From Psychroflexus gondwanensis ACAM 44 (GTDB lineage: Bacteria; Bacteroidota; Bacteroidia; Flavobacteriales; Flavobacteriaceae), in assembly GCF_000355905.1 (NCBI RefSeq), contig NZ_APLF01000005.1, positions 62,001 to 126,000 on the forward strand: a stretch of 64,000 bases of DNA. Direction: 5' to 3'. The position numbers and the translations under genes are program-made. This document shows, piece after piece, positions 38,251 through 49,413 of the stretch. The notes below the pieces were generated by a model. The model had not been told where the DNA came from. It searched no databases and saw only the letters and a list, made by a program, of their open reading frames with translations. The first letter of the stretch is position 1, and each line of letters starts with the position of its first letter.

Positions 38251-41181
38251 ATGCAAGCCTCCTATTTAAAAGACTTATCGAAATCAATTGAAGGAGAACT
38301 TTATCTAGATGACCTTCATCAAATCATTTATGCAACTGATGCATCCGTGTATAGGGAACTACCACTTGCGGTCTGTTGTCCTAAAAACGAAAATGATTTA
38401 AAAAAAATCATCGAGTTCTCTTTTCTTAATAATATATCATTAACTCCGAGAGCCGCAGGAACTTCTTTAGCTGGACAATGCGTTACAGATGGAATGGTTG
38501 TGGATTTAAGTAAGTATTTTACTTCTCAAATTAATTTTGATAAGATCACTAAAAGTATAAGGCTACAACCAGGGATTATAAGAGATAGTTTGAATAAATT
38601 CCTATCTAGTCATGACTTATTCTTCGGCCCAAATACTTCAACTAGTAACCGTTGTAATGTTGGCGGTATGTTTGGTAATAACTCTTCTGGGACGACTTCA
38701 ATAAGATACGGCGTGACCAGAGATAAAATTATATCTACTAAGGGGTTTTTATCCGATGGTAGTTATATCGAAGTTAAAACTCTTAATAAAAATGAATTTC
38801 AGAACAAGTTAAAATTAGATTCTTTAGAGGGTTCAATTTATAGGTATTTCAATGAGTTGTTTCAAAGGCCAGATATTGAAAGTCTTATTGAAAATGGATT
38901 TCCAAAATCTTCCATACACCGAAGGAATACAGGTTACGCCATAGACGAGTTATACAATTTATCCTTTTTTAAACAAGAGTCTATTGATGAGTTTAACCTT
39001 AATAAACTTTTATGTGGAAGTGAGGGTACGTTGTTTATAGCTACAGAATTGGAGCTTAAATTGGATGATACAGCACCTAAGCATTCAGCGATGATTGCTG
39101 CTCATTTTAGAAGTATTTCAGAGTGCTTGGAGTCGGTAGAGCTTACACTATCTCATCATTTGTTTACTTGTGAGATGATGGACAAAACGATCTTGGACTG
39201 TACCAAGGAAAGTATGAAATACAAGGATCATCGTTTTTTTATTGAACAAGATCCCGAGGCGATTTTAATGTTAGAGTTAAAATCGAATTCTCTTGATGAC
39301 TTGAAACTTCAAGTTCAAAATTTACTCGATGATATAAAATTGAAAACTAAAGCTTATGCTTCACCAGTCTTAAAAAATGGTGAAATAGATTTAGCTACAG
39401 AGTTAAGAAAAGCGGGTCTTGGTCTTCTAGGTAATCTTATAGGAGATGGTAAGGCTATAGCTTGTATTGAAGATACGTCAGTGGCTATTCCAGACTTACC
39501 ACATTACATAGCAGATTTTACAAAAATAATGAAATCATACAATCAGAAAGCTGTGTATTATGCCCATGCTGGTGCTGGTGAGCTTCATTTAAGGCCTATT
39601 TTAAATCTAAAAACATCCAAAGGAGTAAAAGAGTTTAAACATATTTCTGAAGATGTCGCCAACCTTGTGAAGTCATATAAAGGAGCCTTAAGTGGTGAAC
39701 ATGGAGATGGTAGAGTTAGGGCGCCTTTTACAAGACAAGTTGTTGGAGAGGAATGTTATGCCGTTTTCAATGAGATAAAACATCTATTTGATCCTCAAAA
39801 TCTGTTTAATCCAGGGAAAATAGTCAACCCAAAACCTATTGATTCAGATTTACGGTATGAGGTGGATAGAGTAGAGCCTGAGATTTCTACAAAAATGAAT
39901 TTCTCTAAAAGTATGGGAATCCTTAGAGCAGCAGAACAGTGCAATGGGAGTGGAGATTGCAGAAAATCCCATGAGTTTGAAGGAGGAATGTGTCCAAGTT
40001 ACCAAGCCACTCGCAATGAGAAAGATACAACCAGAGCAAGAGCTAATATGCTTCGTGAGGTTTTGACAAATAATCATGAAAGTAAAAACCCTTTTGACGA
40101 TGAAAATCTTAAGGAAATTTTTGATTTATGTATTAGTTGCAAAGCTTGTAAAAATGAATGTCCAAGCAATGTGGATGTTGGAGCTTTCAAAACTGAATTT
40201 CAGTATCAATATCAAAAAGCCAACGGTATAAAACTTCGTACCCTAGCCTTTGCAAAAAATAATACAATTAATACCCTAGCCTCTAAAGTAGCACCGCTTT
40301 ATAATTGGTTAAACTCTAATAAATTAATAGGTCCTGTAATTAAAGAAATTGCTGGAGTTGCAAAAGAAAGAAGCCTACCTACTTTATATTCTACATCGTT
40401 AAGGCGAAAAATAAAAAGTGGAAAAATCTCACTTTCTCCTAAAGGGACACCAAAACAATCCATTTATCTATTTATCGATGAATTTACAAATTATCTAGAT
40501 GTCACTATTGGTGAGGATGCCGTCCAGCTTTTAGTGAAATTGGGCTATGAAGTTAAAATTATAAATCATTCAGAAAGCGGAAGAAGTTATTTTTCAAAAG
40601 GCCTATTGGATGAAGCTCAAAATTTTGTGGATGTTAATGTTGAAATTTTTAAAGATATAATTTCTGAAGACATCCCGTTGTTAGGAATTGAACCCTCAAC
40701 AATCTTAAGTTTTAGAGACGAGTATTTAAAGTTGGCTTCAGATCAATCTTCAGCAAATAAGCTGTCCAAGAACGTCTTTCTTATTGAAGAATTTTTGAAT
40801 GCTGAAATTCAAAAAGGGAATTTGACTTCTAAGCAATTTTCTAGTGAAAAACAAGATATAAAAATTCATAACCATTGTTATCAAAAAGCTTTATCTAGCC
40901 AAATTCATACGTTCAATCTACTCAACTTGCCTGAAAATTTTAAAGTTACCTTAATACCTTCAGGGTGTTGTGGAATGGCAGGAAGTTTTGGTTACGAAAA
41001 GGAGCATTATCAAGTGAGCCAATCTATAGGAGAACTTGTTTTGTTTCCAGCAGTTAGAAAATCAAAAGAGGCTATCATTTGTGCAAATGGAACTAGTTGT
41101 AGACATCAAATAAAAGATGGAACCCAAAAAGAGGCTTTACATCCAGTGACTATTTTAAATAAATTTGTCTTAGAAGTTTAA
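38251..41181 (+). CDS. FAD-binding and 4Fe-4S dehydrogenase (D-lactate/D-2-hydroxyacid type)
   Basis: 976 residues, a GlcD-GlcF style fusion. An FAD PCMH domain lies at about 25-260, with LTPRAAGTSLAGQCVTDGMV near 65-84 and FGPNTSTSNRCNVGGMFGNN near 130-149. An FAD-oxidase C-terminal domain follows to about 535 (SGEHGDGRVRAPF near 478-490). Next comes a ferredoxin domain with CNGSGDCRKS near 567 and CISCKACKNECPSNVD near 625-640, then a CCG-type domain (NHCYQKAL and SGCCGMAGSFG near 905-915). It oxidises D-lactate or a related 2-hydroxyacid and passes electrons to the quinone pool. Its last 21 codons are part of the 460-bp direct repeat. Confidence 0.9.
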   Translation: MQASYLKDLSKSIEGELYLDDLHQIIYATDASVYRELPLAVCCPKNENDLKKIIEFSFLNNISLTPRAAGTSLAGQCVTDGMVVDLSKYFTSQINFDKITKSIRLQPGIIRDSLNKFLSSHDLFFGPNTSTSNRCNVGGMFGNNSSGTTSIRYGVTRDKIISTKGFLSDGSYIEVKTLNKNEFQNKLKLDSLEGSIYRYFNELFQRPDIESLIENGFPKSSIHRRNTGYAIDELYNLSFFKQESIDEFNLNKLLCGSEGTLFIATELELKLDDTAPKHSAMIAAHFRSISECLESVELTLSHHLFTCEMMDKTILDCTKESMKYKDHRFFIEQDPEAILMLELKSNSLDDLKLQVQNLLDDIKLKTKAYASPVLKNGEIDLATELRKAGLGLLGNLIGDGKAIACIEDTSVAIPDLPHYIADFTKIMKSYNQKAVYYAHAGAGELHLRPILNLKTSKGVKEFKHISEDVANLVKSYKGALSGEHGDGRVRAPFTRQVVGEECYAVFNEIKHLFDPQNLFNPGKIVNPKPIDSDLRYEVDRVEPEISTKMNFSKSMGILRAAEQCNGSGDCRKSHEFEGGMCPSYQATRNEKDTTRARANMLREVLTNNHESKNPFDDENLKEIFDLCISCKACKNECPSNVDVGAFKTEFQYQYQKANGIKLRTLAFAKNNTINTLASKVAPLYNWLNSNKLIGPVIKEIAGVAKERSLPTLYSTSLRRKIKSGKISLSPKGTPKQSIYLFIDEFTNYLDVTIGEDAVQLLVKLGYEVKIINHSESGRSYFSKGLLDEAQNFVDVNVEIFKDIISEDIPLLGIEPSTILSFRDEYLKLASDQSSANKLSKNVFLIEEFLNAEIQKGNLTSKQFSSEKQDIKIHNHCYQKALSSQIHTFNLLNLPENFKVTLIPSGCCGMAGSFGYEKEHYQVSQSIGELVLFPAVRKSKEAIICANGTSCRHQIKDGTQKEALHPVTILNKFVLEV

Positions 41182-41575
41182 ATTTATCGAAGAGTCTATC
41201 AGATTTTGATTGGACTGTACAGACACATCTGGAATTTCAAAATTCAACTGTTCTGGGATGTCTTCAAAAATAATGTCTGTGCTGACATCACTTTTAATTA
41301 AACCAATATCTTTTGCGTAGTAATTGGTTATCGTGGAAGCATTCTGCTCTTGGAGAATCGTAAAATCTGAAAAGACAATAAAAACACTTGCCGATAAATT
41401 AAGGCTAATTTTTGAGCTGTACACGTCCGAATAGGTTTGACCGTTTACAGTCATATTTTCCATAAAACCAGCATGAGCCAGAGTGATTTCATACTCAAGG
41501 CTTACTGGAAAACCATTGATGTCTTCTTCAACTTCGCCTAAAGAAGTGTAAAGTACGTCTCCTTGAGTTAAGGCT
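41116..41575. repeat. 460-bp direct repeat, left copy
   Basis: Aligned by eye with 48383-48842 at a constant offset of 7267. I see only two mismatches (41129 a/t and 41147 t/c), both in the dehydrogenase part. The repeat holds the dehydrogenase 3' end and, on the minus strand, the 3' half of the lipoprotein gene. Here the dehydrogenase is intact and the lipoprotein is cut. Confidence 0.95.
41170..41575 (-). pseudogene. 3' fragment of the lipoprotein gene (copy of 48437-48842)
   Basis: The minus-strand frame encodes the last 134 or so residues of the lipoprotein at 48437-49243 (for example GFMENMTVNGQTYSDVYSS), apparently with identical residues. It has no signal peptide and is fused at its 5' edge to the decayed PLP-enzyme sequence. 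Not expected to make a functional product. Confidence 0.92.
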
Positions 41576-42004
41576 TTATCTACATCTCAAACTATAATAT
41601 CATCTTTACCTTATAAGGAATCAGCAATTGATATAATATCTTAATAACCAAAATTTAAGAGATATGCCGCTTTTTTACTAACAAATTTAGTAAGTTCATT
41701 TTGAAATTATTCATACAGACCGGTATGTCTGGACATCATAAGTGCTCACATAAGATATGCAGAACCATATTGCACCGCCGCATCGTAATCGGCTTTTATT
41801 ACTTCTAGGGGATTTGCTAGGCTAAGGTAGTTGTTAATATTCCAAGTAATAACATCCTTTTCTTGAAACTTCATTTTGTTAGAAATCTGTCCTTCTAATT
41901 TAGGGAAAACGAAATAACCTTCTGTCTGCACAACCCATTTTCCTAGTGGCCCTTTGTCTCTATAAATCTTTTCAAATAAATCCTTTATGCTTTGAGTTTG
42001 CCAT
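41576..42004 (-). pseudogene. decayed N-terminal fragment of a PLP-dependent alpha-oxoamine-synthase/aminotransferase-like enzyme
   Basis: Minus-strand reading gives, after a frameshift near the ATG at 42004, SIKDLFEKIYRDKGPLGKW, then VQTEGYFVFPKLEGQISN, VITWNINNYLSLANP and AVQYGSAYLM. A stop codon follows, then ALMMSRHTGLYE, another stop and KKAAYLLNFGY. These are recognisable N-terminal blocks of Bacteroidota fold-type I PLP enzymes (2-amino-3-ketobutyrate ligase/serine-palmitoyltransferase relatives). At least four stop codons and the loss of the C-terminal two thirds, including the PLP lysine, show it is dead. It is joined directly to the lipoprotein fragment. Confidence 0.85.
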
Positions 42005-42317
42005 TAATCACTGTTTCTTAGCTTCAAATATAAAAAAAGAAACAATTATTTTGTTAATTTTAGTCTAGCTAGTTGCAGCAGAATTACTTAATTATATTTT
42101 GAATGCATAATTTAATTAAAGTAACTATCCACCAAGTTTTGAACATAAAAAAGGACTGAAAGCAATCTTGACTATAAGGCAAACAAAAATGAAATAGGAG
42201 AATGTTAAAAAAATGTTAATTACAAAAGTAATGTTATTGATTATATAGATATTTAATTAACATTAATTAACATTAATTAACATTAATTAACATTAATTAA
42301 CATTAAACACACTTATC
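42005..42317. other. 313-bp leader region before the small peptide gene
   Basis: Very AT-rich. It holds the start side of the dead PLP gene, no clear TAnnTTTG box, and at its 3' end the decamer tandem repeat (42251-42306). The promoter of the peptide operon must lie here, but I cannot point to it. Confidence 0.55.
42251..42306 (+). repeat. decamer tandem repeat (CATTAATTAA)n upstream of the peptide gene
   Basis: Four exact copies of cattaattaa at 42261-42300, preceded by the near copy atttaattaa and followed by a partial cattaa. The array ends 11 bp before the ATG at 42318, so it is in the promoter or 5' leader. A 10-bp unit is about one helical turn. Copy number could change by slippage and alter expression (inference). 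Confidence 0.93.
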
Positions 42318-42532
42318 ATGAAAAATTTAAACATTGCAAAAAAATTGAAAATAGCAGCTGCAAGTGTTGCTATTTTATGTCCGGGTTAATCTTTGCCCAA
42401 ATCAAACACGAAGGAACTGCAACAAACTATGCTTTTACTGGCAATAGCTCAGATTATTGTAATGCTTCTAATGGTCAACAAAATCTTAGAGTTATAAACT
42501 GTAAGCCAGGTGAAACAAGTTGCTATTACTAA
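42318..42532 (+). CDS. small secreted three-cysteine peptide, frameshifted as read
   Basis: Frame one from ATG 42318 gives MKNLNIAKKLKIAAASVAIL then CPG and a stop at 42387. The frame that starts at an internal ATG at 42377 continues without stop to 42532: MSGLIFAQ, IKHEGTATNYAFTGNSS, DYCNASNGQQNLRVINCKPG, ETSCYY. One missing base in the ttttatg run near 42377 restores a 71-residue precursor. It would have a lysine-rich start, a hydrophobic core and a signal-peptidase site after IFA, leaving a 44-residue mature peptide with three cysteines. It leads the gene set 42613-47776. No family was recognised with confidence. The single-base defect may be a sequencing error, a recent mutation or recoding. 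Confidence 0.65.
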
Positions 42533-42557
42533 CCAATTTTGTTATTATCTAAACTTC

Positions 42558-42592
42558 AAATCAGCATAAATAAATTTTAATTATGCTGATTT
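42558..42592 (+). terminator. hairpin between peptide gene and downstream operon (terminator or attenuator)
   Basis: Perfect 12-bp inverted repeat aaatcagcataa / ttatgctgattt with an 11-nt loop, then attatata. It lies 25 bp after the peptide stop and 20 bp before the lipoprotein start. The right arm covers the alternative ATG at 42583, which argues for the start at 42613. It may cap an abundant peptide mRNA while letting some transcription through. Confidence 0.6.
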
Positions 42593-42612
42593 ATTATATA
42601 TTAATTAAATTT

Positions 42613-43644
42613 ATGAAATCACTTTATCTTATAGTACTATTTATAGTAATTACTAATTGCAAATCAAAAAAATCATTTAATGAAGATGCAATAGTATTCA
42701 GCACTTTTGCTTCAAACGAGAAACTAGAATTGAGTGTCTTTAAGGAAATTCCGGATATTTCGGTTGACGGTCTTTTAAATTACAAGGATTCTCTTTTAAT
42801 AATTAGGAATGCGGCAAATACATCTGATTATCATTTTACAGCATTTGATTTAAGCAAAAAAACTTCTGTTTTTGATATTTTGGAATCTGGTAGAAGGGAT
42901 AACGAGGCAGTGGCATTCTTATCTTATGGAATTTATGGCAACAAATTATGGGTGTTTGATATTGTGAAAAATAAATTTATAACCTCTCAAATAACCGAAG
43001 ACGAATCGGGCGATGACCTACCCACGAATTCAATTTCAACATTCTATTATGGCATACAACCTCTAAACAATACAACTTTTTTGGGGACAGGTGATTACGA
43101 TTCAGATTATAGAGCCGCTATTGTTGATACGAGAACCAACACTGTAACTAGGCAAATAGATTCCTATTCCAAGGATATGTCCAGAGGCTATAAAACGGCT
43201 TATGAAAGTTTTTTGTATTTAAATCCCAATAGAGATAAGGCTATTTTGGCAGCAAGGTTTACTGACCGTGTACAAATTATAAACCTTAAAAAAGAACGTT
43301 CTACTGTCCTTAAAGGGCCTTATGGCTTTGAACCTGATTTGGGTTTTATGACCACTAATGAAGGTAAAGAAATTAGTTACAGTAATGACCAAAGTAAATA
43401 TGCATTTGTAAAAGGAAAAACGACCACTAATTATATTTATCTTTTATATTCCGGTAATTTACAAAACGGACCTAACGGGCATTACGGTAAGACCATACAT
43501 ATTTATAGTTGGGACGGAAAACCTATAAAAAAACTAATGTTACCAGATTATATCTTAGACTTTGCAATTTCTAATGACGATTCTGCTATATATACTTACA
43601 ATCCGAATAAAAAAACCTTAGAATTCTCAACATTGAGTATATGA
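42613..43644 (+). CDS. BF3164-like beta-propeller lipoprotein
   Basis: 343 residues from ATG 42613. An in-frame ATG 30 bp earlier would put extra residues before the signal peptide. Lipoprotein signal with lipobox VITNC and Cys16. The rest is beta-rich with regularly spaced strands, as in six-bladed propellers of the BF3164/TolB-like group: NYKDSLLIIRNAAN, NKLWVFDIVKNKF, YYGIQPLNNTTFLGTGDYDS and ILDFAISNDDSAIYTYN. Such proteins sit beside small exported peptides and TonB systems in Bacteroidota. No catalytic residues are apparent. Its stop overlaps the next ATG (ATGA). Confidence 0.72.
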   Translation: MKSLYLIVLFIVITNCKSKKSFNEDAIVFSTFASNEKLELSVFKEIPDISVDGLLNYKDSLLIIRNAANTSDYHFTAFDLSKKTSVFDILESGRRDNEAVAFLSYGIYGNKLWVFDIVKNKFITSQITEDESGDDLPTNSISTFYYGIQPLNNTTFLGTGDYDSDYRAAIVDTRTNTVTRQIDSYSKDMSRGYKTAYESFLYLNPNRDKAILAARFTDRVQIINLKKERSTVLKGPYGFEPDLGFMTTNEGKEISYSNDQSKYAFVKGKTTTNYIYLLYSGNLQNGPNGHYGKTIHIYSWDGKPIKKLMLPDYILDFAISNDDSAIYTYNPNKKTLEFSTLSI

Positions 43645-44177
43645 AAAATCTTGTATTCTACATATTCATTTGCTTAATTGTCTCTTGTGCCAACGATAAC
43701 AAAAGTTCTGAAGAAGATTATATAAGAATACCAGATACATTAGTAGTTTATAATACCATGAATTCCACAGATTCTATGGCGTCCAAATCTGATATTATAT
43801 CTAAATTAGAGTCCTTTACTATATTTACTTCTATTAACGTATCTTGTGCCACTTGCTTGTTCGAATTTGATAAATGGAGAGCGATTGGAAAGGGTTTTAA
43901 AGACAATACTGTATCAATTGTGCCCATTTGCCATTCTAAAGATAATTTTGAAATGCTAAAATATCTTTTTGAAAGTGGCGATATTAAGCCTCTAGATTTT
44001 CCGCTTTATTTAGATGATAAAAATAAATTTACCGAGCTAAATAAACATTTATTGGATGAGAACCATGGTTTAACAGTACTGGTTGATACTGATAATAAAA
44101 TACTCTTGAAGGGCAGCCCTATTGATGACCAAACCCTAATGAAAAAATATACAAAACTTATAAATACCCAAAAATAA
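43641..44177 (+). CDS. thioredoxin-like lipoprotein with CATC motif
   Basis: 178 residues. Signal peptide with lipobox LIVSC (Cys16). A CxxC site, CATC at 69-72, follows a predicted strand (FTIFTSINVS), as in TlpA/thioredoxin folds. The C-terminal part has the expected strands (FPLYLDDKNKF, GLTVLVDTDNKILLKGSP), where VLVDTDNKI stands where a cis-Pro strand is found in relatives. Probably a periplasm-facing thiol-disulfide oxidoreductase or a peptide-thiol-binding relative. The cysteine peptide upstream is an obvious candidate substrate (inference). It overlaps the propeller gene by 4 bp and precedes the GLPGLI gene by 1 bp. Confidence 0.7.
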   Translation: MKNLVFYIFICLIVSCANDNKSSEEDYIRIPDTLVVYNTMNSTDSMASKSDIISKLESFTIFTSINVSCATCLFEFDKWRAIGKGFKDNTVSIVPICHSKDNFEMLKYLFESGDIKPLDFPLYLDDKNKFTELNKHLLDENHGLTVLVDTDNKILLKGSPIDDQTLMKKYTKLINTQK

Positions 44178-44178
44178 T

Positions 44179-45060
44179 ATGGTAAGAAATATTAACAATT
44201 TACTATTATATGTATTTCTTTTAGCATTATTCTTTAGTACAACTCAACTATATTCTCAAGAGACTGTTGAAGTACACGTGAGATATAATTTTATACACCA
44301 AAAGGAAAAAAATTCTGTAGATGCCGAAGTCCCTTTTGAAGAAACCGTAATCTTATCGGTTGCCCAGAAAAGTAGCCGTTATGTTGCTGAAAGACGTTAC
44401 AACTCAATTAATAAAGCGAAGGAGAGCAAGAGCCAGTCTTCAAATGCTAGTAATGCAGGTAGCACAATAGTAGTATCTGGTGGGCCGCTTTTATTGGTAA
44501 ATGAGACAGGTACTTTAATGAGAGAGGAAATTATGAAAAATTTTGATGACGATGAATTAGTTTTGACTGGAGGTATAGGGTTTAAGAGTTATAGAGTTAC
44601 AACAGACATCCCAAAAATCGAATGGGAAATAAAGACCGACACTAAAACTATTGGAGACATATCGTGCCAAAAAGCCATTGGTAAGTATGCTGGCAGAACT
44701 TACAACGCATGGTTTGCACCAAGTTTACCATTTAACGATGGGCCTTGGAAACTTTCTGGTCTTCCAGGCTTAATACTTGAAGCTGTGGACGACAAGGAGG
44801 AAGTAAAATTTATCTTTAAGGAACTGTCCAAAAATACAGATAAGCAAAAAGAAAAAGTAATCTCCTTTAACCAAGATAGCTCCGATATTCCTACCAAACT
44901 TAAGTCGTATAATAGACTAAAAACTGCTTTTGAATCGGATCCTGTTGGAGTTGCCAAAGCCCAGTTTCCAAATGTAAGAATAGGCATATCCAATCCTAAA
45001 AAAAATGCTTCTAACTTAAAGATAAAGAATTACAACCCATTAGAATTAGAACTTAAATAA
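44179..45060 (+). CDS. GLPGLI family protein
   Basis: 293 residues with a signal peptide (LLLYVFLLALFFSTTQLYSQ near 8-27). The name-giving motif SGLPGLILEA is at 193-202, preceded by the conserved CQKAIGKYAGRTYNAWFAPS near 163-182 and PFNDGPWKL. Members are periplasmic or surface proteins of unknown activity found only in Bacteroidota, often in front of TonB-type receptors. Here the receptor follows after 1 bp. A serine/asparagine-rich segment near 84-96 lies between the N-terminal strand region and the core. Confidence 0.92.
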   Translation: MVRNINNLLLYVFLLALFFSTTQLYSQETVEVHVRYNFIHQKEKNSVDAEVPFEETVILSVAQKSSRYVAERRYNSINKAKESKSQSSNASNAGSTIVVSGGPLLLVNETGTLMREEIMKNFDDDELVLTGGIGFKSYRVTTDIPKIEWEIKTDTKTIGDISCQKAIGKYAGRTYNAWFAPSLPFNDGPWKLSGLPGLILEAVDDKEEVKFIFKELSKNTDKQKEKVISFNQDSSDIPTKLKSYNRLKTAFESDPVGVAKAQFPNVRIGISNPKKNASNLKIKNYNPLELELK

Positions 45061-45061
45061 T

Positions 45062-47776
45062 TTGTTTACTACCTACCATAGATTGATTGCTATTAAATTA
45101 ATCCGTTTTTTATGGCTTTTGGTAATCCCTCTAATTCCATTATCAGGAACTGCCCAAAACGACATCATTTCTGGTAAAGTAGTGGGTGAGAATAACACAG
45201 TACTAGCATCTGCCAATGTTACCTTAGTTAATGACAACGGCGTAATTTTGGCATTTTCAATTTCAGACGATGATGGTAAATTTCAAATTGATATCGCTTC
45301 AATTAATAAAACTTCAAACTTATACCTTGAGGTTTTATACTTAGGGTATAAGAAAGAGCGTCAACAATTCTCTGAGACTAGCTCTGTATATAATTTTAAA
45401 CTTATACCAGATGCGACTTTACTTGACGAAGTTGTAATTCGCGATAAGCCTCTTGTTGAGCGCCAAGGCGACACCTTAGAATACAATGTCAGTAAATTTT
45501 CTAAGCCAGAGGATCGCAGTATTGGAGATGTTCTTAAACGTATGCCTGGCATCCATGTAACAAGTGATGGCACCATTTACTATAACAACGAAGAAATACT
45601 AAATCTTTATATACATGGAGATGACTTAATGGCTGGTAAATACGGTTTGGCGTCTAGAGTGATAAGAAAAGAAGACATTATAAGCGTTGATATAATGCGG
45701 AACCATCAGCCTATAAAAGTGCTACAAGATAAAGTACCATCAAACAAAATAGCTGTAAACTTAGTGCTTAAAGATGAAGACAGCTTTAAATTATCTGCTC
45801 AGGCGCTTTTAGGAGCTGGCTTACCAAAACAGTACGATTTGGAGATAACACCGATATTGCTGAATAAAACCGTAAAATTTTTGAATCATATTGCGGCTAA
45901 TAATAGCGGCATAGATTATAGAAGGGATTTTAAACAATTAGGGACTCAAAACTTTATATCGAATAAGCAGAGTGATGAAGTCGCGTTTTCTCTATCCCAA
46001 GGTACGGTTGGTAGTCCTGACCTGCCAACAGAAGATTATTATATAAATAATTCAGCAAGTATAAACCTTAACAACCTATACACTTTTAAAAACGATTTAA
46101 AGGTAAGGCTGAACATACAAGGCTTAATAGACAAAAACACCTTATCGTACTCCAATCAATTAATTAATTACACAGCAAATGATACCATTATTTTTGATGA
46201 AAGGCAAAATTTAACGAACAGGCCAAAGATTCTGTTATCATCAATTAATGTAATGAAGAATCAAAAAAACTTTTTCTTTAATAATAATCTCAAAATAAAT
46301 GTTTCAAGAAACGACGATAGCAGCCGCTTAAGTTTTAATGATGATTCATTTTCCCAAAACCTATCGCAAAATGAGTTTACCATATCGAATGATTTTAATT
46401 ATATACCCAAATTGAGCACAAAAGGTATCGCAGAAATTAGATTGATAACTGAATACAATACCAAAGACAACAAATTAAATTTAAGAGATGGCTATCAATT
46501 CCCTATAACCCAAGATGAAGATTATGAGAACGTTGAGCAGCTCTTAGAAATACCCACATTTTACATGGATGGGTTTTTATCGTATAAATTACCAACGTCA
46601 ACTATAAAGCAAGATTATAGATTAGGATATACAAGAGAAAACCGAGAGTTTAATTCCACTTTACTTTTTAATACCACAAATGAGTCTTTTATATACGATG
46701 GCGATTCTGGGAACGCTTTAAATTGGAAAAAAAGCAAATACTATTTTATATCGGATTTTAGTGTTGAAACCAAAAAAATAAGAGCTTCCCTTAACTTGCC
46801 AATATTCTACCAATCTATAAATTATTCTCAAAAAGAATACAATCTTGATAAAAAGGATATTGGCTTTTTTTTCAATCCAAATATCAATTTTCAATATGCC
46901 TTTAATGTAGAAAAAAGGTTGAATTTTAGTTATGGCCATAACACTAATTTCGGAAATTTATCACAAGTTTTTAGAGGTGTTGTTTTACAAAATTATAGAA
47001 GTTTATTATCTAACAATGCAAATTTGCAAAGATCAGACACGGATACATTTAGTTTAAAATACACTTTAGAAAATTCTGCTGAGCTTATGTTCATAAATGG
47101 TGGAATTACATATAGAACTCTGAAAATCAACAATATACTATCGTCTACTATCGAGGATAATATCATTCGGAGCGAGTTACTTCCATTTGGGAATACCCAA
47201 AATAATTTAACGCTCAACTTAGGTTTTAGTAAATATCTTTTCGCTTTTAAAACTAAATTTTCATTAAACACGCAATTATCGCAATCCACATTCGAAAACA
47301 TCATAAATGACAACTTAGTCCCTTTTAAATCGAACGGTATTTTGTTGTCTTCTAATTTTTCGAAGTCTTTCCTTGATATTTTTACTTTGGACTACACTCC
47401 AAGAGCAAATTGGAATTTTAGTCGGCTTGAGGCAGATGACCAAAATTTATCCGTAGAATCTATATCGTACAAGACTTTTAGGTTTGAACAAAATTTAAAT
47501 TTAACTGTAACTCCTGCAAAAGAATGGAATCTGAAACTTAATTCAAACTACATCTCAATTAAACAGAATGACTTCAACAGCAATACATATTTTCTTTTAA
47601 ACTTAAACTTTCAACATAATCTCAAAAACGACAAATTTGAGTTAGGTATAGATGTAACAAATCTCTTTGACGTTGATGAATATAGGCTATATTCTATTAC
47701 CGACAATCAACAAATTAACACCAACTTTCAATTAAGAGGAAGAATGATTATAGCGAGACTGAATTGGTACTTGTAA
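45062..47776 (+). CDS. TonB-dependent-receptor-like outer-membrane beta-barrel with carboxypeptidase-regulatory-like domain
   Basis: 904 residues read from a TTG; no ATG lies near, and a second TTG is 21 bp later. Signal peptide (LWLLVIPLIPLSGTAQ). A CarboxypepD-reg-like beta-sandwich follows at about 35-115 (ISGKVVGENNTVLASANVTL). Then a plug domain near 125-230 (DRSIGDVLKRMPGIHV, SVDIMRNHQPIKVL) and a barrel of about 650 residues that ends in FQLRGRMIIARLNWYL with terminal aromatic residues. The plug is short, and a classical TonB box is not obvious. Probable importer or exporter of a peptide-like ligand. Last gene of the peptide operon. Confidence 0.85.
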   Translation: MFTTYHRLIAIKLIRFLWLLVIPLIPLSGTAQNDIISGKVVGENNTVLASANVTLVNDNGVILAFSISDDDGKFQIDIASINKTSNLYLEVLYLGYKKERQQFSETSSVYNFKLIPDATLLDEVVIRDKPLVERQGDTLEYNVSKFSKPEDRSIGDVLKRMPGIHVTSDGTIYYNNEEILNLYIHGDDLMAGKYGLASRVIRKEDIISVDIMRNHQPIKVLQDKVPSNKIAVNLVLKDEDSFKLSAQALLGAGLPKQYDLEITPILLNKTVKFLNHIAANNSGIDYRRDFKQLGTQNFISNKQSDEVAFSLSQGTVGSPDLPTEDYYINNSASINLNNLYTFKNDLKVRLNIQGLIDKNTLSYSNQLINYTANDTIIFDERQNLTNRPKILLSSINVMKNQKNFFFNNNLKINVSRNDDSSRLSFNDDSFSQNLSQNEFTISNDFNYIPKLSTKGIAEIRLITEYNTKDNKLNLRDGYQFPITQDEDYENVEQLLEIPTFYMDGFLSYKLPTSTIKQDYRLGYTRENREFNSTLLFNTTNESFIYDGDSGNALNWKKSKYYFISDFSVETKKIRASLNLPIFYQSINYSQKEYNLDKKDIGFFFNPNINFQYAFNVEKRLNFSYGHNTNFGNLSQVFRGVVLQNYRSLLSNNANLQRSDTDTFSLKYTLENSAELMFINGGITYRTLKINNILSSTIEDNIIRSELLPFGNTQNNLTLNLGFSKYLFAFKTKFSLNTQLSQSTFENIINDNLVPFKSNGILLSSNFSKSFLDIFTLDYTPRANWNFSRLEADDQNLSVESISYKTFRFEQNLNLTVTPAKEWNLKLNSNYISIKQNDFNSNTYFLLNLNFQHNLKNDKFELGIDVTNLFDVDEYRLYSITDNQQINTNFQLRGRMIIARLNWYL

Positions 47777-47789
47777 CTTATTTAATCTA

Positions 47790-47822
47790 ATTAATAACTA
47801 AGTTATTAATTAAAAAATTTAT
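47790..47822 (+). terminator. AT-rich terminator-like hairpin after the receptor gene
   Basis: Palindrome attaataact/agttattaat (47790-47810) followed by taaaaaattt. It is 14 bp after the receptor stop. The stem is A-T rich, so its strength is doubtful. Confidence 0.45.
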
Positions 47823-47944
47823 TAGAATATAACTTCCAATAGGCGTATGTTATTCTAACTTCTAAATATTTAGTAGAGGTGAGTAGTAAATATCTATCTT
47901 TAATGCATGTATATATATTAAATTATTAGCATATTTAAGAGTCA

Positions 47945-48384
47945 AAATCTTCTAGAGTTCTGTTATTGGTACAAAGCGGATCTTGATTGTAAAAAGTATC
48001 TGGCTGGATTGGAGAATAAAACAGATTATAAATGATTAAAATGCAACCATTCTGCTAGTCAGATTAAGTCTGATTTTGCACGATAGTGAAAGTCGTCTGT
48101 GGACATGAGGAATTTACTACTAAAAATACGTTTTTTCAAAAGTTGAAATTTGGCCTTAGAAAAGCTTTTTTGCATGTTTTGAAATGTCGATATCTATCCA
48201 GAGTTTATCTGCAAGTTATATAGGTGTTTGCTAAGGTTTGACTGAAAAGACCGCTAGATTGTTTATAGTGAAAGTGAGAGAAGCCATGTTATCAAGCTGA
48301 AATAATCCAATGGATGGTAATGTGCAAGTGGATGAGTTTGTGCCTAGCGGAAAAGAAGAAGGTAAAAACAGGAGGGAGCTATGA
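47945..48384 (+). pseudogene. decayed IS1595-type (ISXO2-like) transposase fragment
   Basis: Blocks recovered in shifting plus-strand frames: EFCYWYKADLDCKKYLAGL, then CNHSASQIKSDFAR, LKFGLRKAFFACFEMSIS, SLSASYIGV, TEKTARLFIVKVREAM and VQVDEFVPSGKEEGK. These follow the order of the IS1595 transposase zinc-finger N-terminus, helix-turn-helix and the first catalytic Asp region (DEFV). Several stops and frameshifts are present, and the rest of the DDE domain is absent. It breaks off exactly where the right 460-bp repeat begins. I found no inverted terminal repeats. Confidence 0.8.
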
Positions 48385-48842
48385 TGGAACCCAAATAGAG
48401 GCTTTACATCCAGCGACTATTTTAAATAAATTTGTCTTAGAAGTTTAAATTTATCGAAGAGTCTATCAGATTTTGATTGGACTGTACAGACACATCTGGA
48501 ATTTCAAAATTCAACTGTTCTGGGATGTCTTCAAAAATAATGTCTGTGCTGACATCACTTTTAATTAAACCAATATCTTTTGCGTAGTAATTGGTTATCG
48601 TGGAAGCATTCTGCTCTTGGAGAATCGTAAAATCTGAAAAGACAATAAAAACACTTGCCGATAAATTAAGGCTAATTTTTGAGCTGTACACGTCCGAATA
48701 GGTTTGACCGTTTACAGTCATATTTTCCATAAAACCAGCATGAGCCAGAGTGATTTCATACTCAAGGCTTACTGGAAAACCATTGATGTCTTCTTCAACT
48801 TCGCCTAAAGAAGTGTAAAGTACGTCTCCTTGAGTTAAGGCT
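48383..48842. repeat. 460-bp direct repeat, right copy
   Basis: Partner of 41116-41575. On the plus strand it carries a remnant of the last 21 codons of the dehydrogenase (DGTQIEALHPATILNKF and the stop at 48448) joined to transposase debris. On the minus strand it is the 3' part of the intact lipoprotein gene. Recombination between the copies would remove 7267 bp and restore the presumed ancestral convergent pair. Confidence 0.95.
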
Positions 48843-49243
48843 GCGTCGTAAAGAGTAACGTCTAGTAAAGGGATTGTAAAGCCTGGGAATTCATCACTGA
48901 GAAACACTGAATATTCTCCATCAAAAATAATAGTTTGCTCACCATTCTGTTTATAAACTTCTCCTGAACTAAGAATAGTGGTAAAAACCCCAGAAAAGTT
49001 AGTGACCGTTTGGGTAAAACTAAAGCGTTGTGGATTTTGAGTATTAACTTCAGAAATACTTAAGGTTTCGTTACCTGTGATAGTGCTCGAATTTTCTCTA
49101 GAGGTGTTCTCATAAGTCCAAGAATTATCTAAAGCCAGGGGAAAATAATTTGAGTCTGATAAGAGGATATCCTCATCCTCACTAGCACAAGAGTAACAAA
49201 ACAAAAGGAAAATGATTCCTAGGTAAACGCTTACTTTTTTCAT
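48437..49243 (-). CDS. lipoprotein of unknown function (intact copy)
   Basis: 268 residues with lipobox FCYSC (Cys19) and an acidic start of the mature part (ASEDEDILLSDSN). All-beta pattern with YFPLALDNSWTYENTSREN near 33-51. This start, a phrase on a uniform field followed by NSWTYE, is typical of Bacteroidota surface lipoproteins of unknown function. No catalytic motif seen. Its 3' half is duplicated at 41170. In the ancestral order it would have converged on the dehydrogenase with a 12-bp overlap. Confidence 0.82.
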   Translation of the reverse strand: MKKVSVYLGIIFLLFCYSCASEDEDILLSDSNYFPLALDNSWTYENTSRENSSTITGNETLSISEVNTQNPQRFSFTQTVTNFSGVFTTILSSGEVYKQNGEQTIIFDGEYSVFLSDEFPGFTIPLLDVTLYDAALTQGDVLYTSLGEVEEDINGFPVSLEYEITLAHAGFMENMTVNGQTYSDVYSSKISLNLSASVFIVFSDFTILQEQNASTITNYYAKDIGLIKSDVSTDIIFEDIPEQLNFEIPDVSVQSNQNLIDSSINLNF

Positions 49244-49413
49244 TATATAAATATCTAATGCAATTTAGATATTTTATATAGGTTTTGACTTATTTGTTGT
49301 CAAAAACAATAGAAGCGCTTATGAAACTTTAGGGCAGTTGAATTTTCCTACCCAATCTCCAGAATTCAGATATAGGAAATAGTGATTTTAATGGTAATCT
49401 ACTTAGATTGTTT

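Follow-up and report, generated by a model that had tools for sequence, protein, structure and literature searches.

Do the five neighboring plus-strand genes at positions 42318 to 47776 of this 64,000-nucleotide stretch of the Psychroflexus gondwanensis ACAM 44 genome (hereafter the window) form one envelope system? The first-pass annotation had proposed that a small secreted peptide, a propeller lipoprotein, a CxxC lipoprotein, a GLPGLI protein and an outer-membrane barrel make up a single route across the envelope. We found that the peptide, propeller and CxxC genes are a divergent version of a recurring Bacteroidota unit, composed of a peptide, a propeller and a ResA-like thioredoxin lipoprotein, and that this peptide-plus-partner-lipoprotein arrangement is widespread in Bacteroidota and functionally undescribed. 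Judging from sequence, we assign a probability of roughly 50% to the fuller reading, in which the trio is a divergent peptide-plus-partner unit whose peptide would be secreted, processed and oxidized and whose propeller would be its specific partner, with processing, oxidation, binding and role being the putative parts.

The open reading frame (ORF) of the propeller lipoprotein opens at 42583, and alignments to relatives fit a start at 42613, which gives the probable gene as 42613-43644 (plus strand). Its product matched PF15869 (TolB_like) with an E value of 8.7e-37 and 127.5 bits, against a curated cut-off of 29.2. The Foldseek matches listed for the structure model (pLDDT 77.0) were generic propellers, mostly G-beta and also YncE, and the fold gave no lead to a function. 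The next gene (43641-44177, plus strand), which overlaps the propeller gene by 4 bp, encodes a lipoprotein with the motif CATC. Profile comparison matched this protein to StoA (E 3.9e-8), the best Foldseek matches of its model (pLDDT 83.9) were ResA and also DsbE, and C69 and C72 of the CxxC motif were invariant across 20 sequences. The protein is predicted to have a ResA/DsbE-like thioredoxin fold with a CxxC motif and a putative redox role, in line with its earlier description as a disulfide-handling partner. It resembles the ResA/StoA/DsbE oxidoreductases in this predicted fold and carries an N-terminal lipoprotein signal, but its identity to ResA is about 18%, it falls below the Pfam Redoxin cut-off, and the CxxC lipoproteins of its kind are linked to propellers in 7/7 cases in the family. 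Anti-phage defense was considered and rejected, as no PADLOC model matched the propeller, CxxC, GLPGLI or barrel protein at E ≤ 0.01.

The distribution of the unit was examined in genome samples that include P. gondwanensis itself. PF15869 is sparse, with matches in 9 of 395 genomes at the level of the order and in 14 of 395 at that of the class, and P. gondwanensis has one copy. A profile built from 13 propellers matched in 9 of 397 family genomes, and another built from 11 CxxC lipoproteins detected seven copies in 6 of the 397. All seven copies lay directly 3' of a propeller gene, their starts ranging from 11 bp ahead of its end to 21 bp past it, and each of the seven propellers was preceded by a small secreted cysteine (Cys) peptide, the broken one of the window counted; five of these units were in the search profile, and those of G044 and G1139 were not (G and L numbers are our handles for genomes and loci). 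This constant order indicates that the peptide, the propeller and the CxxC lipoprotein belong together, as the first-pass annotation had assumed. Variant orders were observed elsewhere, namely, peptide-CxxC-propeller in L049 and peptide-propeller-DUF1573 in L046, L054 and L241. The scan of contigs with the window propeller, from which the P. gondwanensis genome was possibly left out, confirmed no close relative of the five-gene set, and 299 family genomes contained distant propellers only, the best being 25% identical to that of the window.

The peptide gene of the window turned out to be split. The frame from 42318 (42318-42389, plus strand) translates to MKNLNIAKKLKIAAASVAILCPG and then ends in a stop at 42387-42389, and the FAQ-IKHEG part with the three Cys is encoded in a separate frame, the ORF at 42377-42532 (plus strand). 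The single signal-peptide-bearing ORF annotated from 42318 had thus been joined from two frames. Programmed frameshifting was considered, and no standard slippery heptamer was found by eye at the frame junction. As sequenced, the gene is broken, wrongly sequenced or recoded, three states that look alike in the sequence. Because the peptide gene is frame-broken as sequenced, the window unit probably does not function, barring a sequence error at the break or a way of reading across it. No comparable peptide was detected in 26 other genomes of the genus, where all matches outside the window had E values of 0.139 or worse. About five copies of the 10-bp tandem repeat TTAATTAACA lie directly upstream of the peptide (42253-42306), and the repeat occurs nowhere else in the genome; it is a possible promoter element or copy-number switch.

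The window trio resembles loci of Bacteroides and Parabacteroides in which NVEALA (PF14055) peptides stand beside TolB_like/BF3164-type propellers (PF15869). In both, a small secreted Cys peptide lies directly upstream of a PF15869-type lipoprotein, the peptide frame of the window ending at 42532 and its propeller starting at 42583 or 42613; this position is an association seen in the present analysis and lies outside the Pfam definition of NVEALA. Of the 79 named Bacteroidales loci, 76 were evaluable, and in 55 of these the filter placed a peptide upstream of the propeller, compared with 61 of 443 control ORFs; in the first count L123, L135 and L182 at least are doubtful positives and two visible peptides (L132 and L151) are missed, and the control is permissive and may contain real peptides beside other genes. 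Fifty of these 55 upstream peptides contained an NVEALA-like motif, and the one Bacteroidales-type peptide scanned matched Pfam NVEALA with an E value of 2.2e-9. A CxxC lipoprotein is nearby in many of these loci, as in the window; a CxxC protein was encoded within 3.5 kb in 45 of the 77 named loci.

Peptide and propeller are already catalogued as Pfam families, and a functional paper was not found in the open-access literature searched. A table in PMC1887533 gives BF3164 as a putative lipoprotein. No naming of NVEALA was found in a search of open-access literature, outside which most subscription journals and preprints lay. The matches listed for Pfam accessions and DUF names concerned Plasmodium and enzyme profile methods, and no such peptide-propeller system was seen among the matches listed for other terms.

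We compared leaders and cores in the Bacteroidales-type peptides, a list of 132 to which the window peptide does not belong and which contains one false positive (L184), leaving 131 for Cys counts. In 127 of the 145 peptide pairs with a leader identity of ≥70%, core identity was below 40%. The number of Cys was even in 123 of the 131 cores, and in 67 of the 74 outside the CxGxG type, although the sequences are related and a binomial p is not to be read at face value. These counts are in keeping with the disulfide character that had been ascribed to the peptide; the Cys of the window peptide, for which conservation had been expected, are not kept one by one. A propeller lay within 1 kb downstream of 104 of the 132 peptides, and the 28 peptides that had none in that distance included some near contig ends. 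Counting each propeller a single time, even where more than one peptide was assigned to it, reduced the 104 cases to 96 pairs, over which core similarity tracked propeller similarity (rank r 0.56, reached in 0 of 500 permutations) and leader similarity did not (r -0.07, 477 of 500). Because core similarity follows propeller similarity over these 96 pairs, peptide type and propeller type go together at the level of sequence. Within the large propeller class (n = 51), r was 0.45 for the core and 0.28 for the leader (each 0 of 1000), and 0.43 for the core given the leader. Conserved leaders, diverged cores with even Cys numbers, and the match of core with propeller therefore suggest that the NVEALA-type peptide is secreted, processed and held by disulfide bonds, and that it has a cognate propeller, which would be a receptor or an immunity protein.

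Conserved leaders joined to strongly diverged Cys-rich cores are also what a bacteriocin/immunity pair would produce, in which the core inhibits close relatives, the propeller protects the producer and core divergence reflects an arms race. Class II bacteriocins and conotoxin-like cassettes are secreted peptides of this build. The multiplicity of peptides (up to eight per locus, as in the 17-kb locus L141 of Bacteroides muris, all eight of NVEALA type) and the agreement of core type with propeller type fit this possibility as well. However, 57 of the 131 cores have one CxGxG..C pattern in common, indicating conservation rather than racing, and a propeller is large for an immunity protein. The NVEALA-type leader also differs from those of the bacteriocins and conotoxin-like cassettes in being a long signal peptide with an A-x-A-like motif at its end, and many of the loci have a linked signal peptidase I. 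We consider the bacteriocin explanation rather unlikely. Alternatively, the mature peptide could act as a pheromone for which the propeller is the sensor, whether or not the barrel takes part. The frequency with which a peptide is followed by its own propeller (104/132), the diverged cores, and the linkage of a thioredoxin protein and a signal peptidase in many loci are consistent with such a signal, but no regulator was seen as a constant neighbor in loci read by eye rather than searched systematically, where regulators were present in few, namely, a LytTR-kinase-like pair in L043 and a small helix-turn-helix-like ORF in L042. A signal with its receptor is an unlikely explanation in our view.

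Genes that could serve peptide processing and export were encountered beside many peptide-propeller units. Signal peptidase I was encoded within 7 kb in 29 of the 59 named loci with ≥6 kb downstream, and it also accompanied the units in L042, L043, L049, L050/L246, L089-L092 and L244. An RND pump was located beside the units in L042, L043, L049, L050/L246, L096, L098, L101, L103, L241, L244 and L245, and TolC-like or fusion proteins beside some. Units with no signal peptidase I, RND pump or TolC-like/fusion protein in the stretch examined include L044, L046, L094, L095 and L097, as well as L099, L100, L102, L104 and L243. In 21 hand-picked loci a linked signal peptidase was scored by a script in 6 of 9 long-leader but 1 of 11 short-leader loci (one-sided p 0.012), a comparison in which the script misplaced the motif in at least L089, L090 and L094 and dropped L089 and in which the loci differ in length. 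With motifs read by eye, the same loci gave 8 of 12 long-leader and 0 of 9 short-leader loci with a signal peptidase, and we regard the link between a long leader and the presence of a signal peptidase as a lead only. Proteins of about 600-670 residues that look related recur beside units (L049:2869-4680, L091:1355-3271 and L244:10965-12971); that of L049 had no Pfam match at E ≤ 0.1, and that of L091 had no NCBIfam match.

A broader generalization, which we rate as less likely than not, is that NVEALA-type peptides would form, with related peptides, one class throughout Bacteroidota of leader-processed, disulfide-bonded secreted peptides, each with a cognate propeller, matured by a thioredoxin lipoprotein and a signal peptidase I of their own and exported by linked RND-TolC pumps in several lineages, and that the window would be a mobile variant in which the GLPGLI-barrel pair replaces the pump. 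Under the narrower peptide-plus-partner reading, the precursor peptide of an intact unit would pass through Sec, and a signal peptidase, which many loci encode nearby, would remove its leader. The Cys-rich core would then be oxidized or proof-read by the thioredoxin-like lipoprotein, a step that, like leader cleavage, is assigned from the protein families. The mature peptide would act between cells, and its specific partner would be the neighboring propeller lipoprotein, most likely a receptor or an immunity protein. If the reading of leader and core is true, secreted peptides and their candidate partners can be listed by name for gut and other Bacteroidota, and a part of these peptides in competition or signaling is directly testable.

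Several observations weigh against this peptide-plus-partner reading, some of them in the window itself. The window peptide differs from those of the NVEALA loci in lacking an intact ORF, the NVEALA motif and a long leader, and it has three Cys; when joined across the break, it matched no Pfam family at E ≤ 10, NVEALA included, and NVEALA had no match over the cut-off in the P. gondwanensis genome. Neither a linked signal peptidase nor an RND pump was found between 36000 and 54000. Further differences from the NVEALA loci are the GLPGLI and barrel genes that follow and the CxxC protein, which lacks the DUF1573 tail of its counterpart in L089. Outside the window, just 18 of the 77 named loci have the CxxC gene immediately after that of the propeller, and six further peptides, from loci of non-Bacteroidales type (L042, L043, L044, L049, L095 and L244), had no NVEALA match. 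In a further set of loci, a peptide-like ORF was present upstream of 33 of the 61 propellers and absent from 28, as counted with a looser filter within 1.5 kb and with one doubtful positive (L098). These 28 include all 12 propellers in L055-L061, and no peptide was seen beside the propellers of G131, G177 and L047 in the family sample. L055-L061 come from one genus of the same order, in which propellers are numerous and some stand in tandem. The association of core with propeller mostly separates one large propeller class from the rest; r among the other 45 pairs was 0.06 for the core (103 of 1000) and 0.13 for the leader (18 of 1000), and inside the large class it may reflect common descent. 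Fine coevolution of core and propeller below the class level was accordingly not borne out.

How did the trio come to lie in front of a GLPGLI gene and a barrel gene? The block is flanked by a direct duplication of 460 bp, which comprises the end of a FAD-oxidase gene and the 3' part of a minus-strand lipoprotein gene. The left copy lies at 41116-41575 and the right copy at 48383-48842, with a start-to-start spacing of 7,267 bp, and the segment between them (41576-48382) is absent from the nearest relative, G683 (oxidase protein, 96%). In that genome the counterparts of window positions 40500-41575 and 48383-49313 join without interruption, and the 460-bp sequence is present once. The gene block is a discrete insertion of about 7.3 kb, and G683 holds the empty site; together with the recurring gene order, this places the arrangement beyond chance. 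A PF15869 match was present in 3 of 27 genomes of the genus (P. gondwanensis included), one of them below the cut-off.

The GLPGLI gene (44179-45060, plus strand) follows the CATC lipoprotein gene after 1 bp, and its product matched TIGR01200 (E 8.5e-47; 159.8 bits, cut-off 50). After a further 1-bp gap comes the barrel gene (45062-47776, plus strand), which starts with TTG. Its Pfam domains are CarbopepD_reg_2 (PF13715) and PF13620, which are of the carboxypeptidase-regulatory-like kind, and OMP_b-brl_3 (PF14905), with no others. The earlier description as a barrel with a plug was confirmed for the barrel but not for the plug, as no Pfam Plug model matched at E ≤ 10, and the packing described for the four genes from the propeller to the barrel was confirmed. 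Families and order are the same in GLPGLI-OMP_b-brl_3 modules at five other places of the P. gondwanensis genome. Four other contigs were examined in their GLPGLI-bearing stretches, where each of the five long barrel ORFs is preceded by a GLPGLI gene, a count biased by the choice of stretches for their GLPGLI matches; four of these ORFs are complete to the stop codon, and the fifth is truncated where the stretch ends. The window barrel is just 24-30% identical to these paralogues, partly over short stretches, and differs from them in lying downstream of a peptide unit. The stretches L217 (contig C8) and L218 (contig C3) of this genome contain seven GLPGLI-type genes each, with barrels and barrel fragments interspersed.

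GLPGLI and barrel are a separate multi-copy module of this genome. A GLPGLI-barrel pair was beside none of the six other peptide-propeller-CxxC units, and no case of the five-gene combination was seen outside the window, which does not support the proposal that the pair is part of the peptide system. One neighborhood outside the window, L047, has a GLPGLI gene close behind propellers, with no barrel and, by the filter, no peptide; a peptide had been expected beside such loci, and its absence weakens the proposal of a complete five-gene system. L051 and L052 each have a barrel at a distance of several kb from a propeller. The window genes lie in one insertion and one tight operon, which suggests that they would be coexpressed, and we infer that the GLPGLI-barrel pair may be functionally coupled to the peptide unit, the barrel possibly serving as a way across the outer membrane for the peptide or for its target.

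The same insertion can be read as a dead or hitchhiking fragment, in which the peptide is a pseudogene and the GLPGLI-barrel pair an unrelated envelope module caught alongside it. The frame break, the independent GLPGLI-barrel pairs, the degraded sequence at the insertion edges and the failure to find a similar peptide in any of the other 26 genomes of the genus point in this direction, but the genes from propeller to barrel have uninterrupted frames and the tight spacing of a functioning operon, and the break could be a sequencing error. We find this account doubtful for the window set.

At the right edge of the insertion, the degraded stretch 48180-48382 resembles an ISXO2-type transposase fragment by eye. 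A 26-residue piece of it (48304-48381) and the ORF at 41746-41931 had no Pfam match at E ≤ 1. The window has no ORFs of corresponding length at the site where, between the lipoprotein gene and an aroC-like gene, G683 carries two short ORFs that are metallophosphoesterase-like by eye (L214:5090-5902).

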